A stretch of DNA of 25,161 bases, from positions 1 to 25,161 of IMG/VR virus record IMGVR_UViG_3300047550_002673. One strand, given 5' to 3'. The translations under genes and the position numbers were made by a program. Below, one piece after another: positions 1 to 6,993 of the stretch. Numbering within the stretch: the stretch's first letter is position 1; every line of letters begins with the position of its first letter. Source of the DNA: a virus. The notes below the pieces were generated by a model. The model was not told the DNA's origin. It saw only the letters and a program-made list of their open reading frames with translations, and did not search any database.

Positions 1-223
1 TAATGCAGCCTGACGAAGTAATCTGACCCACATAGGGTTACTATCGTTCATATATGTGGTGTAGTGTTAGTGATGGGTAGTAACTAACATCAAATAACAC
101 CACTCTGCATCCGATTTACGATTGTTCCTTTTCGAGAATCGGATTAAGACACATAAGGAACTACACACATAAACACTCAATAGGAAGCAGTCTCGGACCA
201 GGGTTCGACTCCCTGCGGGTCCA
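1..223 (+). ncRNA. ssrA: tmRNA (ssrA), 3' portion, truncated by window start
   Basis: The 3' end is a T arm: stem 199-203 (CAGGG) pairs with 211-215 (CCCTG) around the 7-nt loop TTCGACT. The 7-nt acceptor strand CGGGTCC (216-222) and discriminator A223 follow. CCA is not encoded, so it would be added after transcription. The run TCTCGGAC just before the T stem matches the conserved tmRNA sequence at this place and replaces the anticodon arm of a normal tRNA. Upstream lie nested perfect stems: 56-62 with 97-103, 65-71 with 83-89, 109-116 with 137-144, and a bulged stem 14-21/38-46 with inner CCC/GGG. This is the pseudoknot-rich layout of tmRNA. TAA at 1-3 would be the stop of the tag reading frame, followed by a GCAGC helix strand. 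tmRNA rescues stalled ribosomes and tags the unfinished protein. The 5' tRNA-like half and tag codons lie outside the window, so tag sequence and acceptor pairing (expected 5' strand GGACCCG) cannot be checked. Confidence 0.85.
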
Positions 224-261: not shown

Positions 262-570
262 ATGTTCAAAAAACTCCTTGATGATGTCATTAGATGGATG
301 TATAAGCATGAAGAATCCACCGACACACCATCAGCACCACAAACAATCGAAGTAGGTTTACGGCGTAAACTTATCAGTGATGAATACAGAGATATTGTAG
401 AAGATTTACGTCAAGCAAACACGTTAGCAAAGTTATTGGAAATGCGTAAACGTATTCAAGAATTTCAAAAAAATGTGATAGAAAGTAACGAATATAATTG
501 GGGTAAACAATATATTCTCGACTTGTACAAAATGTGGAAAATTAAATATCACCACTGGAAAAAGTTCTGA
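262..570 (+). CDS. Hypothetical protein (102 aa)
   Basis: Not recognised. The product is a charged, mostly helical small protein with many Lys, Arg and Glu residues, no Cys and no membrane segment. It has an amphipathic-looking central stretch (about residues 35-75) and a basic, aromatic C-terminal end. The start is supported by a strong ribosome binding site, CGGAGGT at 249-255, seven bases before the ATG. It is the first protein gene downstream of the tmRNA, 38 nt past its 3' end, and its stop overlaps the binding site of the next gene, so the three genes to 1272 probably form one transcript. Small proteins in this position of T4-like genomes are often host-takeover factors, but nothing in the sequence shows a function. 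Confidence 0.8.
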   Translation: MFKKLLDDVIRWMYKHEESTDTPSAPQTIEVGLRRKLISDEYRDIVEDLRQANTLAKLLEMRKRIQEFQKNVIESNEYNWGKQYILDLYKMWKIKYHHWKKF

Positions 571-576
571 GGGGTT

Positions 577-954
577 ATGTTAAAAAGAAAAATTACAAAG
601 GCTACTTCCGCAGTCAAAAAGTTATTTAAGACTGGTAATACTAGAAAGACTTTGATGTGCAAAGTATGTGAAAAGATAGAGGTGGAGGTTTCGTTCGACA
701 CAGCAGCAGTTACTTGTTCATATTGTGTCCAACGGCAACTTCCTCCACCCGAAGGTATCAAACCAAAAGACCCTACGGAAAAGTTTCCCCGCGGTTGGGC
801 GCTGAAGGCACGATATGTTCACATTGATGGCCGTGTGTTCGAAAAAGGGAAAGACACAGGCGAAGTGGTTACACCAGAAGTAGTAAAACCAAGGAAGGAA
901 AGAAAGGAAAAGAAAAAGGTAACCAAGAAGAAAACTCCAAATCGGAGAAAGTAA
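577..954 (+). CDS. Small zinc-ribbon protein with Lys/Arg-rich tail (125 aa)
   Basis: Two CxxC pairs (C28/C31 and C47/C50) spaced 15 residues apart form a likely four-Cys zinc ribbon. It is followed by a Pro-rich linker and, from about residue 103 to the end, a strongly basic tail made mostly of Lys, Arg and Val. The N-terminal 25 residues are also basic. Such a layout fits a nucleic-acid-binding protein, but no family is recognised. The start is set by GAGGGG (569-574), which overlaps the stop of the upstream gene, three bases before the ATG. The stop at 952-954 touches the ATG of the next gene at 955. The basic tail could also serve in binding an acidic partner such as RNA polymerase or the ribosome. 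That is inference only. Confidence 0.85.
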   Translation: MLKRKITKATSAVKKLFKTGNTRKTLMCKVCEKIEVEVSFDTAAVTCSYCVQRQLPPPEGIKPKDPTEKFPRGWALKARYVHIDGRVFEKGKDTGEVVTPEVVKPRKERKEKKKVTKKKTPNRRK

Positions 955-1272
955 ATGCTTCAATTACCACCAAACAAACCATTTCCAGTCATACAAAAAT
1001 TTCTTCAAGACAATGAAGCGCTAGTGTACTGGTATATGACGTTGAGTATTTCAAAGGCAATTAAAAACAACGAAGAAAAAACAGAACTATTTTCTTTTGG
1101 CGGTCATAGCGAGAATATTGCAGTAGTCAAAAAGATGGATTATGAAAAGGTATTGACCGATGCAATATCACATTTCAGTAAAGCAGAAGAGTATGAACAC
1201 GCAGCATTCGCACGTGATTTATTAACCAAGTGGAAGGTAGAACAAGTAATAAACGATAAACCAACGGAGTAA
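955..1272 (+). CDS. Hypothetical protein (105 aa)
   Basis: Not recognised. It is a mixed-charge, largely helical protein without Cys, signal peptide or membrane segment. The second half (about residues 58-95) looks like two amphipathic helices, with alternating Ala/Phe/Leu and Glu/Lys. The ATG follows directly on the stop of the zinc-ribbon gene, so translation is probably coupled. The upstream bases (GGAGAAAGTAA) give a GGAG about nine bases before the start. The binding site of the following HNH gene lies inside its last codons. It shares an operon-like string with the two preceding small genes, and nothing here indicates its job. Confidence 0.78.
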   Translation: MLQLPPNKPFPVIQKFLQDNEALVYWYMTLSISKAIKNNEEKTELFSFGGHSENIAVVKKMDYEKVLTDAISHFSKAEEYEHAAFARDLLTKWKVEQVINDKPTE

Positions 1273-1275
1273 TCT

Positions 1276-1788
1276 ATGGGGCTGGACACTACGAGATGCG
1301 TAGTCCTTAATGCCACATACGAACCCATTACAATTGTCTCATCCAAACGAGCGCTTATCTTGTATCTTGAAGGTAAGGCGATGATTGTAGAAGAACATCC
1401 AGACTTGGTGGTGCGGTCACCGAATCAGACGTTCCCTGTTCCTACGAGTATAGTGCTGAAGCACTTCGTAAAGGGTCGTATGGTATTTCGGACTAAAGCA
1501 CTACTCACACAACGAAATCTATTTATTCGTGACCAGTATACGTGTCAGTATTGTGGTCGCACCAAACAACAAATCAGACATTCTGAATTCCTCACACGGG
1601 ACCACGTAATCCCGCGTCATATGGGAGGAAAGGATATCTGGGAAAACGTGGTCACCTCTTGTAATTCGTGCAATAACAAGAAGGCATACCATCTATTAGA
1701 AGATATTAATATGACCCTCTTGAAAAATCCCACAGCACCTACTATATTTGAGTTGTGGACTAGACAACAGAAACGATTACACCACTAA
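1276..1788 (+). CDS. HNH endonuclease (170 aa)
   Basis: The C-terminal half holds a complete HNH (beta-beta-alpha-metal) module. Structural zinc pairs are C90/C93 and C129/C132. The core is D109-H110 in the RDHVIPR motif, a conserved Asn in WENVV (N124), and the closing CNNKK (N133). The N-terminal part (residues 7-60) resembles the leader of bacterial free-standing HNH proteins, with VLNATYEPITIVSSKRA followed by a Gly-Lys-Ala segment. The enzyme should nick or cut DNA using one metal ion. GGAG at 1266-1269 sets the start, inside the stop region of the preceding gene. No interrupted gene or intron is visible on either side, so a homing role is not supported. Roles in host DNA breakdown, packaging or mobility are all possible. 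Confidence 0.93.
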   Translation: MGLDTTRCVVLNATYEPITIVSSKRALILYLEGKAMIVEEHPDLVVRSPNQTFPVPTSIVLKHFVKGRMVFRTKALLTQRNLFIRDQYTCQYCGRTKQQIRHSEFLTRDHVIPRHMGGKDIWENVVTSCNSCNNKKAYHLLEDINMTLLKNPTAPTIFELWTRQQKRLHH

Positions 1789-1804
1789 ACAAGGATAAAA
1801 GGTT

Positions 1805-2428
1805 ATGATAGACGAACAGAAAATTGAAGAAAATTACAACAAGTTTATGGAGTATGTGAAGGCAGATTCGCGTGCCGACCAACTTGTTGCGATGTACGAA
1901 GATTATGGTAATGAACTAATGACTGCCCCCGCCTCGGGTAAGGCGCATTACCATAACACATTTCCAGGTGGTTACATTGACCACGTTCTCCGTGTGGTAG
2001 ACGCTACTCTACAATTTTCTTCATTATATAAGAAAATGGGTGGAACTATTAATTTCACAAGAGAAGAAGCTGTGTTTTCTGCTCTTCATCATGATTTAGG
2101 AAAGTTGGGAAATCCTGGAACGGCTCCATACTATCTAGACCAAGATTCGGATTGGCATCGTAAGCGTGGTGAGTTGTACAAGCATAATCCCAATCTCCCA
2201 TATATGCAGGTTCCTGACCGTGCATTAATGACACTACAACGATATGGAATCAAACTGACAGACACAGAATGGTTGAGTATTAAATTATCTGATGGTTTGT
2301 ATGACGAAAGTACGAAGGCATATCTTAAAACATTTACACCATATCCACTAGAAAGTAGTCTCCCACGAATCATTCACGTAGCAGATTATATCTCCAGTCA
2401 AGTAGAAAACGACTTTACCAGATTTTAA
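1805..2428 (+). CDS. HD-domain metal-dependent phosphohydrolase (207 aa)
   Basis: HD-superfamily motifs are in order: H60 in the PGGYIDH segment, the H96-D97 doublet within HHDLGK, and a distal Asp (D194) in HVADYIS. These are the metal ligands of the family, whose members remove phosphate from nucleotides or cleave phosphodiesters. The 207-residue size is a single HD domain without fused sensor parts. No membrane segment is seen. AGGA at 1793-1796, eight bases before the ATG, is the likely ribosome binding site. The gene follows HNH by 16 nt and is closed by a hairpin, so it ends the transcript that starts near the tmRNA. In a phage a nucleotide-pool or signalling-nucleotide function is plausible, but the substrate cannot be read from the sequence. 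Confidence 0.88.
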   Translation: MIDEQKIEENYNKFMEYVKADSRADQLVAMYEDYGNELMTAPASGKAHYHNTFPGGYIDHVLRVVDATLQFSSLYKKMGGTINFTREEAVFSALHHDLGKLGNPGTAPYYLDQDSDWHRKRGELYKHNPNLPYMQVPDRALMTLQRYGIKLTDTEWLSIKLSDGLYDESTKAYLKTFTPYPLESSLPRIIHVADYISSQVENDFTRF

Positions 2429-2552: not shown

Positions 2553-3032
2553 ATGACTCATTTAGTATTTCGCCCATTCGGGTCAACGGTTTTGAACAAT
2601 AGAGAAAACTTCATCAGCACATTTGATAAGATGTTTGATGAAATCACTCGAAGAGATTTTCCCGAACTCTTTCAACATTGGGGAGCAGAACCTTTCGGAA
2701 AGGCAGCATATCCAAAGGTCAACGTAATTTCGCATGACGAGTCTGTGACGATTGAAGCAGAACTCGCCGGTTATAAGAAGGATGAAATTGATATTGAGGT
2801 TAAGGAAGGAGTCTTAACCATTTCAGGCGGTGCATCTCAATTGAACGAGCAAACTGATAAATCTGTTTATCTGCTTCGTGAACTTAAGCGTAGTTCGTTC
2901 AGTCGTTCATTTAAGCTCGGTGACCAATTGGATGCCTCAGCAGTAGACGCACAGTTTGACAACGGGTTACTCACAGTTACCATCCAAAAATTGACTAAGG
3001 AGCCAGCAAGTAAAAAGGTTACGATTAAGTAA
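2553..3032 (+). CDS. hsp20: Small heat-shock protein Hsp20 / alpha-crystallin family (159 aa)
   Basis: This is an ATP-independent chaperone that holds unfolding proteins. The N-terminal arm (1-50) carries Phe-rich helices, and the alpha-crystallin domain spans about residues 52-150. The family signature A-x-x-x-N-G-L-L-x-V is present as A133 to V142 (AQFDNGLLTV). The EAELAGYKKDEIDIEV segment (67-83) and the following ISGG turn are also typical of bacterial-type Hsp20. A short C-terminal V-T-I (156-158) could be the I/V-x-I oligomer contact. An excellent ribosome binding site (AGGAGGT) suggests high expression. hsp20 genes are common in T4-like phages of cyanobacteria and other aquatic hosts, where they are thought to help during infection or assembly. 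The gene has its own leader after an upstream terminator. Confidence 0.95.
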   Translation: MTHLVFRPFGSTVLNNRENFISTFDKMFDEITRRDFPELFQHWGAEPFGKAAYPKVNVISHDESVTIEAELAGYKKDEIDIEVKEGVLTISGGASQLNEQTDKSVYLLRELKRSSFSRSFKLGDQLDASAVDAQFDNGLLTVTIQKLTKEPASKKVTIK

Positions 3033-4276: not shown

Positions 4277-4297
4277 TAATGTACTACTTAATTGGGG
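4258..4297 (+). promoter_or_regulatory. Inverted repeat pairing the promoter spacer with the uvsE ribosome binding site
   Basis: CCCCAATT (4258-4265, within the -35/-10 spacer) is an exact reverse complement of AATTGGGG (4290-4297), which contains the G-run serving as uvsE ribosome binding site. The loop is 24 nt. Only transcripts that read in from upstream contain both arms. Transcripts from the nested promoter start after the first arm. Confidence 0.55.
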
Positions 4298-4303
4298 GTT
4301 TTC

Positions 4304-5203
4304 GTGCCTATCAACGTTGGTTACTGTTGTATCAATAATACACTCAACAAACGTGGTATCACCACGGGTCGTGCGATGCGTAAAGCAACCTTTGAAGCTA
4401 AGGGGTTGAAGTACGCATCTGAACTAGCACTTGCAAACGCCAATGACCTACTGACTATTCTAAAGTGGAATGCCGATAATGATATCAAGGTATTCCGTAT
4501 GGGGTCTGGTATTTTCCCGTGGGGTACGGAATACAAGGAAACTCACCTTCCAGACTATTTTGCAATTGTCAGTAAGTTGAAAGAGTGCGGTGACTTCGCC
4601 AAAGCTACTGGCCAACGTATCACCGCACATCCCGACCACTTTGTAAAGTTGGGTTCGGAGAAAGAGTCTGTTGTATTGAATTCTATCAAGGATTTGGAAC
4701 TCCATTCTACTGTGTTTGACTATATGGGATTGGAAGAAAGTCCATACAACGCTATCAATATTCACGTGGGTATGAATTTCTCTGAGGAAACCGCACAACG
4801 TTGGATTGACAACTATCGTCGTTTGTCACCGAATCTTCAAGCACGTATGGTGGTCGAGAATGATGACAAGGAATCCGCATTCTCCATTATTCAACTGTTT
4901 ACGTATCTCCATACAGAATTGGATATTCCACTTACCTTCGACTATTTTCATCACCAGTTTCACCCAGACGGATTAACCACACAAGACGCTGCAGAACTTT
5001 CCGCTGGAACTTGGCCAGAAGGTATCACTCCACTCTTTCACTATAGCGAGAGTAAGAATATCAATGAAAATGTTACGGGTAATCCTCGCGCTCACGCTGA
5101 TTATGTGTTTTCTCGTATTGACGATTTTGGACTCACGATTGATGTTGACCTCGAAGCGAAAGCAAAAGAACTCGCACTATTCAAATACAGAGAATTAGTA
5201 TGA
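4304..5203 (+). CDS. uvsE: UV damage endonuclease UvsE/UVDE (299 aa)
   Basis: This TIM-barrel nuclease nicks DNA 5' to UV photoproducts and starts excision repair without a glycosylase. The N-terminal GYCCINNTL segment, the RAMRKATF and NANDLLTILKWN segments, and metal/catalytic positions all fit the family: H109/H112 (AHPDH), H154 (NIHVG), E185 (VVEND), D213 with H216/H217 (FDYFHH) and H246. Length matches the usual 280-310 residues. I choose GTG at 4304, giving MPINVGY, because GGGGGTTTTC then a start codon also precedes the gene at 8586. The TTG at 4292 would lie inside the G-run and add MGVF. A dedicated promoter lies upstream. The stop overlaps the next start (ATGA), so this gene leads a coupled operon. 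Confidence 0.93.
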   Translation: MPINVGYCCINNTLNKRGITTGRAMRKATFEAKGLKYASELALANANDLLTILKWNADNDIKVFRMGSGIFPWGTEYKETHLPDYFAIVSKLKECGDFAKATGQRITAHPDHFVKLGSEKESVVLNSIKDLELHSTVFDYMGLEESPYNAINIHVGMNFSEETAQRWIDNYRRLSPNLQARMVVENDDKESAFSIIQLFTYLHTELDIPLTFDYFHHQFHPDGLTTQDAAELSAGTWPEGITPLFHYSESKNINENVTGNPRAHADYVFSRIDDFGLTIDVDLEAKAKELALFKYRELV

Positions 5204-5349: not shown

Positions 5350-5981
5350 CACCACTAATTTCATTTGCTATTACGACACATAACGAAGGTGAATACATTC
5401 GTGAGTTGTTAGACCAGCTTGTTCCTCACTGTGAACAAACGGGCGATGAAATCGTTGTCGTAGATGACAACTCTACAGATGTATTTACACAGAATCTACT
5501 GTACGATTATGCAGATAAGGACAAGATTCAGTTATATCAGCACGAATTGAATAATGACTTTGCTTCACATAAGAACTTTTTAAACAGTAAGTGTCGTGGA
5601 GAGTATATTTTTCAAATTGATGCTGATGAAAAGTTCCACAATAATCTATTGACCTATCTACACGATATTGTGGATAACAATAAGAACATTGACCTATTCT
5701 TGATTCCGCGCGTCAATATTGTCAATGGACTGACCGAACAAGATATTCGTGGATGGGGATGGCGAATCAATGAGAAGGGTTGGGTAATGTTCCCAGATTA
5801 TCAAACTCGTCTATACAGAAATGTTGAAGAAATTAAGTGGGAAGGAAACGTACACGAACGTATTATAGGATATAAGACCACTGCACCACTTCCAGAGGAA
5901 GAAGAATGGTGTCTCTATCATATCAAGGAAATCGAACGTCAACGTAAACAAAACGACTATTATGCAACCATTACACGCTAA
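5346..5981 (+). CDS. Family 2 glycosyltransferase (211 aa)
   Basis: GT-A fold enzyme that moves a sugar from a nucleotide sugar to an acceptor. The N-terminal strand SFAITTHNEGEYI leads to VVVDDNSTD (nucleotide-binding D40/D41). The metal-binding DxD is D92-A-D94 within QIDADEKF, and the VHERI segment (169-173) plus a C-terminal H-x-x-x-E-x-x-R-Q helix resemble LPS-type GT2 enzymes. At 211 residues it is a bare catalytic domain with no membrane helix. The start overlaps the upstream small membrane gene by four bases and lacks a clear ribosome binding site, so it relies on coupling. Its 3' end overlaps the next gene by 20 bases. Phage GT2 enzymes may modify virion proteins, DNA bases or host surface sugars; which applies here is unknown. 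Confidence 0.9.
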   Translation: MTPLISFAITTHNEGEYIRELLDQLVPHCEQTGDEIVVVDDNSTDVFTQNLLYDYADKDKIQLYQHELNNDFASHKNFLNSKCRGEYIFQIDADEKFHNNLLTYLHDIVDNNKNIDLFLIPRVNIVNGLTEQDIRGWGWRINEKGWVMFPDYQTRLYRNVEEIKWEGNVHERIIGYKTTAPLPEEEEWCLYHIKEIERQRKQNDYYATITR

Positions 5982-6993
5982 TCAAGCACTCACATACGAT
6001 GATATCCAATTAATTCCAGGATATTCGGATATTGAGTCACGACAAAATATTGACCTTACGACTCAACTCACTACTAATTATAGTATTAGGGTTCCGTTGG
6101 TCGCATCTCCAATGGATACCGTCTGTGATAGTGAGATGGCAGTCGCTATGGCAGAACTTGGTGGTATCGGATGTATCCACAGGTTCTTGACTATCTCACA
6201 ACAGGCACACGAAGTTGCGTTTACCAGTAAGACGGTTCGTAATCGTGATTGGTGGACCCCACACGTGATGGCGGCAGTTGGAGCAAACGGTGATTATTTG
6301 GAACGTGCACAAGAGTTGGTCAATAACGGTGCGAATATTATTTTGATTGATGTCGCTCACGGATACCATAAGTTTGTTCGTGATGCAATTCTTAACTTAA
6401 AGAAGAATCTACCGTCTACTGTAGATATCGTCGCAGGAAATATCGCTACTGGTAAGGCAGCAGAAGCACTCCAAGATTGGGGAGCAGATGCACTTCGGGT
6501 TGGTATCGGTGGTGGGTCACTCTGTACGACCCGCGTTAAGACGGGGTTTGGTGTTCCCAATGTTACGTCATTGTCAGATGTCGCAACGGTAGCAAAGGTT
6601 CCTGTGATTGCTTGTGGTGGTATCAGAAATAGTGGTGACATTGCGAAGGCACTCGCAGTTGGAGCAAACGCAGTCATTCTTGGGTCACTTATTGCAGGAA
6701 CGAAGGAAGCTCCTGGTGCTATGATTGAGAAGTCAAATGGGTTATATAAGCGGTATCGTGGTGCAGCATCCTTGGAGACGAAGAGCATCCACGGACAAGC
6801 ACAACGTAACGTAGAAGGTGAATCAACTATCGTACCTTTTAAGGGTAAAGTAAAGTTTGTGGTGGATGGACTGTTGGATGGATTACGTTCTGCACTATCC
6901 TACGCTGGTGCAAGTAATCTGACCGAGTACTTTCCCGAATATGTGGTTGTGACGAATGCAGGAGTTCGTGAGGCACAACCGCATCTACTCTAA
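5962..6993 (+). CDS. IMP dehydrogenase / GMP reductase family protein (343 aa)
   Basis: The product is a TIM-barrel enzyme of guanine nucleotide metabolism. The N-terminus LTYDDIQLIPGYSD and the VASPMDTV loop match IMP dehydrogenase. The catalytic loop is GIGGGSLCTTR with nucleophile C188. CBS domains are absent, so length (343) is that of GMP reductases or CBS-less GuaB forms. The late segment VEGESTIVPFKGKV looks nearer to GMP reductase, while the front half looks like IMP dehydrogenase, so the reaction direction is open. Two departures from the family stand out: GGGS replaces GPGS in the catalytic loop (G184), and IACGGI replaces the ADGG(I/C) motif, putting C218 where the substrate-ribose-binding Asp sits. 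It is the last gene of the coupled uvsE operon and could supply guanylate for phage DNA. Confidence 0.9.
   Translation: MQPLHANQALTYDDIQLIPGYSDIESRQNIDLTTQLTTNYSIRVPLVASPMDTVCDSEMAVAMAELGGIGCIHRFLTISQQAHEVAFTSKTVRNRDWWTPHVMAAVGANGDYLERAQELVNNGANIILIDVAHGYHKFVRDAILNLKKNLPSTVDIVAGNIATGKAAEALQDWGADALRVGIGGGSLCTTRVKTGFGVPNVTSLSDVATVAKVPVIACGGIRNSGDIAKALAVGANAVILGSLIAGTKEAPGAMIEKSNGLYKRYRGAASLETKSIHGQAQRNVEGESTIVPFKGKVKFVVDGLLDGLRSALSYAGASNLTEYFPEYVVVTNAGVREAQPHLL

Follow-up and report, generated by a model that had tools for sequence, protein, structure and literature searches.

A one-piece tmRNA gene at a fixed position in related uncultured phages, truncated by the edge of an IMG/VR contig

Introduction

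tmRNA is the RNA that frees stuck bacterial ribosomes, and integration commonly takes place at the 3' end of its gene. That phages can carry a tmRNA is established. Ten phages with tmRNA were listed in 2014 (PMC4131195), and 402 of 18,146 phage genomes, given as 2.3%, carried one in a 2021 data set (PMC9004378). Mycobacteriophages of the Bxz1 group and Bacillus phage G have a complete tmRNA in a large genome (PMC4131195), and Methylophage Melnitz, an aquatic T4-like phage, has a tmRNA that is permuted, made of two pieces and placed under a glutamine riboswitch (PMC9004378). Other cases have received other readings: mycobacteriophage DS6A has an RNA consisting of the tRNA-like domain only, proposed to be a decoy (PMC4131195), and Maribacter phage Panino, with a tmRNA and an integrase, has been discussed as an attachment-site case (PMC11590407).

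The DNA analysed here (the window) is a whole IMG/VR record of 25,161 bases without end repeats. Positions 1-223 very probably represent the 3' side of a tmRNA gene that is complete and functional in the phage and that the end of the contig cuts at the tag stop; the set of relatives compared with it is a new lineage.

Results

The original prediction, that this phage carries a tmRNA, was borne out by the Rfam model RF00023, which matched positions 1-226 of the plus strand with 57.8 bits (cut-off 47; E 2e-20), and by complete copies in relatives. The match was truncated at its 5' side, beginning at model position 126. The contig starts exactly with the stop codon of the tag; it holds the final two thirds of the gene, and the 5' half lies past its edge. 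ARAGORN made no tmRNA call on the window because the gene is incomplete. The nearest complete copy (L164) was identical at 207 of the 223 positions (93%), without gaps. The features are as follows.

1-223 (+): 3' part of a one-piece tmRNA (ssrA), from tag stop to discriminator A; RF00023, and 93% gap-free identity to the complete L164 tmRNA
1-3 (+): TAA, stop of the tag frame; alignment with complete relatives
13-59 (+): pseudoknot PK2, with P6 (13-21/38-47) and P7 (28-34/53-59); covariation
65-105 (+): pseudoknot PK3, with P8 (65-71/83-89) and P9 (75-81/99-105); covariation
109-161 (+): pseudoknot PK4, with P10 (109-116/137-144) and P11 (124-130/155-161); covariation
199-215 (+): T arm (199-203/211-215) with TTCGA loop; sequence, 100% paired with compensatory changes in the alignment
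216-223 (+): acceptor 3' strand CGGGTCC and discriminator A; sequence, with pair partners from relatives
262-2428 (+): downstream neighbours, comprising two small unknown proteins, a 105-aa protein, an HNH endonuclease and a phosphohydrolase-like protein; related contigs have their homologues behind the tmRNA in matching order

A T arm with a TTCGA loop, expected of a tmRNA, was present at 199-215. The window holds the 3' strand of the acceptor only, where U220 would supply the U of the G3:U70 pair, and the stop TAA only of the tag frame. A223 is the last base of the RNA proper and CTT comes next; CCA is not encoded and, as had been predicted, the CCA-adding enzyme of the host would be needed.

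The perfect stems that had been noticed in the sequence, one of 8 bp and two of 7 bp, correspond to P10 (8 bp), P11 (7 bp) and P8 (7 bp). The segment also forms a bulged P6 of 9 bp, a P7 of 7 bp and a T stem of 5 bp. P9 had one A-C mismatch in the window, at which L164, read from its sequence, was fully paired. Of 200 dinucleotide shuffles, 199 folded less well than the segment (z -2.7).

PK2, PK3, PK4 and the T arm of the window part were written by hand, and their pairs were counted in 17 sequences, one of which (L139) stood in its row with shifted coordinates and no 3' end, leaving the other 16 rows unaffected. Paired cells made up 89.7% of the total and 100% in P11, and both sides changed in 30 of the 50 pairs. 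Double-sided compensatory cells numbered 161, against 52.6 in shuffles and 4 to 15 in controls with partners slid by one to three columns; the window itself served as the template for the helices and the aligned sequences share ancestry, and these controls are accordingly not strict probabilities, with a margin that is nevertheless very large. PK2 to PK4 lie downstream of the tag, as in a tmRNA, and every helix covaries. A chance structured region that is no tmRNA would agree with the missing ARAGORN call on the window, but the Rfam E-value, the complete relatives called by both Rfam and ARAGORN, and the covariation refute this explanation, which is left with a negligible probability.

The tmRNA was carried by about thirty IMG/VR contigs of related uncultured phages. 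A pattern search with the T arm and acceptor returned nine contigs, another placed in the tag region two more, and a third near the 5' end 26 stretches, mostly new. Complete genes in relatives scored 98 to 143 bits with RF00023. In all contigs compared, the tmRNA lay upstream of the same row of genes as in the window; in the nine first contigs it preceded homologues of the window genes at 577-954, 955-1272 and 1276-1788, followed by homologues of further window genes as far as the fetched stretch reached. When contigs were instead found independently of the RNA, through the protein encoded at 955-1272, six of six carried the tmRNA (three already known). For the first small unknown protein (262-570) a search with a degenerate pattern found no relatives, and direct comparison found distant homologues in L006 and L008. 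GenBank phages yielded neither a close DNA match to the window nor a remote one to its first 600 bases. With intact copies in the same place in about thirty related phages, the tmRNA is a real, long-kept phage gene.

Several relatives had tRNA clusters near the tmRNA. Dense clusters 3' of it comprised about 20 tRNAs in L142 (4800-9811) and about 15 in L146 (8100-11265). In L164 (1968-1975) the upstream reading frame apparently ends in a TAG that overlaps the first tmRNA base, which would suggest co-transcription and processing of the tmRNA. A divergent tmRNA subgroup (L005, L141, L143, L148 and L152) had the strands of P5 swapped (GCAGC...GCTGC, vs. GCTGC...GCAGC elsewhere) and a tag ending in TGA.

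The position of the gene bears on whether the contig edge could be an attachment-site remnant of a prophage, that is, the 3' end of a host ssrA used for integration. Such a remnant would fit the frequent integration at tmRNA 3' ends and a contig that starts inside the gene. Precedent exists in the discussion of Maribacter phage Panino (PMC11590407). Against it, the contig retains 223 bases of the RNA, vs. a short att core, and relatives have the whole gene inside their phage contigs. No integrase (PF00589, Phage_integrase) was found in 11 related records, those of 145-167 kb included, and the exact 3'-end pattern had no match in the bacterial genomes of an 84,980-species collection. The full-length internal copies and the lack of an integrase largely refute a remnant, for which an integrase together with a partial gene would be expected; it is considered highly improbable.

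As for the retained parts of the gene, the seven-pair acceptor was fully paired and kept G3:U70 in all 23 distinct full-length copies, with the general form GGGNNNN/NNNNTCC. Its inner pairs covaried (GGGCCCG/CGGGTCC, GGGCCTG/CAGGTCC, GGGCGTG/CACGTCC, GGGCACG/CGTGTCC and GGGCGTA/TACGTCC). The tag frame was intact and ended in LALAA, again in 23 of 23 distinct copies. Both features had been named beforehand as a refuting test, in that the lack of a GGACCCG-type acceptor strand with the G-U pair and of a tag frame stopping at the TAA (1-3) would have spoken against a tmRNA; all full copies in the relatives had them.

Tags in the relatives were GNYNLALAA, GNYTLALAA, GNTQLALAA, GNQNLALAA, GNNQLALAA, GNQLALAA, GNSYSQPLALAA and GNYNSPALALAA. 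ARAGORN gave a different tag for L005, which was discarded as a mis-set frame, the aligned frame reading GNQNLALAA. Tag length ranged from 8 to 12 residues in steps of whole codons, synonymous codons differed and LALAA was fixed; this variation by whole codons, with synonymous changes before a fixed end, supports translation of the tag. The tag of the window is probably GNQLALAA, as in L164, its nearest relative.

A decoy, that is, a degenerate tmRNA titrating SmpB or blocking trans-translation of the host, draws on the report that a molecule made up of the tRNA-like domain can be a strong inhibitor of tmRNA (PMC4131195). A decoy has no need for a tag, whereas the relatives keep the tag frame, its stop and all pseudoknots with compensatory or synonymous change, and a decoy is rated very unlikely.

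LALAA at the C-terminus is an ordinary, degron-like ending. GNNQLALAA, read in one phage copy, was also the tag of two bacterial tmRNAs, found among 294 genomes from the phylum of a Planctomycetota MAG and, by eye, otherwise unlike the phage RNA; LALAA is therefore not phage-specific. In the tag-pattern scan, the matches listed were mostly Bacteroidota tmRNAs with [YF]ALAA tags. With the LALAA pattern, which also admits F, eight of nine matches in 395 Bacteroidota genomes were FALAA, and the ninth was a putative GKFNLALAA. The suggestion that the phage might bring its own degradation tag consequently became doubtful, given an ordinary ending and a tag shared with bacteria. Assignment of a host from the tag was abandoned, as the bacterial tmRNAs with GNNQLALAA were unlike the phage RNA and the 3'-end pattern matched none.

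Regarding the phages themselves, the window has baseplate genes of a contractile tail (gp25- and gp6-like), and also encodes Hsp20, a UvdE-type endonuclease, an IMPDH/GMP reductase domain protein and a RusA-like resolvase. The longer relatives were of 145-167 kb, up to 166.6 kb. The phages with this tmRNA are best read as large, contractile-tailed and probably virulent. SmpB was not found in the long relatives, and the partners of the tmRNA must therefore be those of the host.

Other genes of the window had features of their own. The small heat-shock protein Hsp20 (2553-3032), whose gene stands in one row with the tmRNA, was 95 to 97% identical in the closest contigs. The UvdE-type UV-damage endonuclease (4292-5203) was 95% identical to that of L004, vs. 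about 56 to 76% for neighbouring genes there, and this contrast suggests that the gene was exchanged recently. The IMP dehydrogenase/GMP reductase domain protein (5962-6993; Pfam 338 bits) belongs to nucleotide metabolism, and its gene is, to our knowledge, uncommon in phages.

Discussion

Established tmRNA biology and the features retained in this lineage point to ordinary trans-translation with host partners, because the features kept are those for alanine charging, SmpB-dependent entry and translation of the tag. The predicted course comprises expression, charging, rescue, tagging and a benefit to the phage. The tmRNA would be transcribed during infection, and host enzymes would trim it and add CCA. 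Host AlaRS would then charge it with alanine through G3:U70, and host SmpB would bring it to ribosomes stalled on broken messages. Translation would switch to the short tag (here probably GNQLALAA) and the ribosome would be freed, while the stalled peptide, now tagged, would pass to a ClpXP-type protease of the host. The likely benefit would be that ribosome recycling is maintained during the degradation of host mRNA and DNA. Relative to the tmRNA of the host, the phage RNA may be a supplement, a replacement or a competitor.

A phage tmRNA specialised for infection, for example one targeting particular host or phage products or outlasting the inactivation of host tmRNA, is regarded as unlikely. 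If it were true, the variable tags before the fixed LALAA would be an adaptation to host adaptors or proteases.

A tmRNA is in itself expected for large phages that are also rich in tRNAs. With 23 distinct full sequences from one lineage and at a fixed position, the present set is a clean and deep set of phage tmRNAs and strong evidence of selection on structure and tag, and it eases testing why phages carry tmRNA.

Among isolates, the best matches to the baseplate wedge protein were those of Microcystis phage Mel-JY01 and Flavobacterium phage immuto (about 40% identity), but neither genome had a tmRNA over the cut-off. The tmRNA of Methylophage Melnitz is permuted and in two pieces, whereas the present one is in one piece, and Rfam found no riboswitch in the relatives scanned, unlike the glutamine riboswitch of Melnitz. 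The Bxz1 group and Bacillus phage G, likened here from published text alone, similarly have a complete tmRNA in a large genome. Compared with the one-piece bacterial tmRNA (ssrA, RF00023), the full-length phage tmRNAs are shorter (334-353 nt vs. mostly 390-400 nt in the bacterial tmRNAs of the Bacteroidota sampled), begin their acceptor with GGGC- instead of mostly GGGG-, and have no encoded CCA; the G3:U70 acceptor, the T arm, the tag frame, the pseudoknots and a LALAA-type end are common to both.
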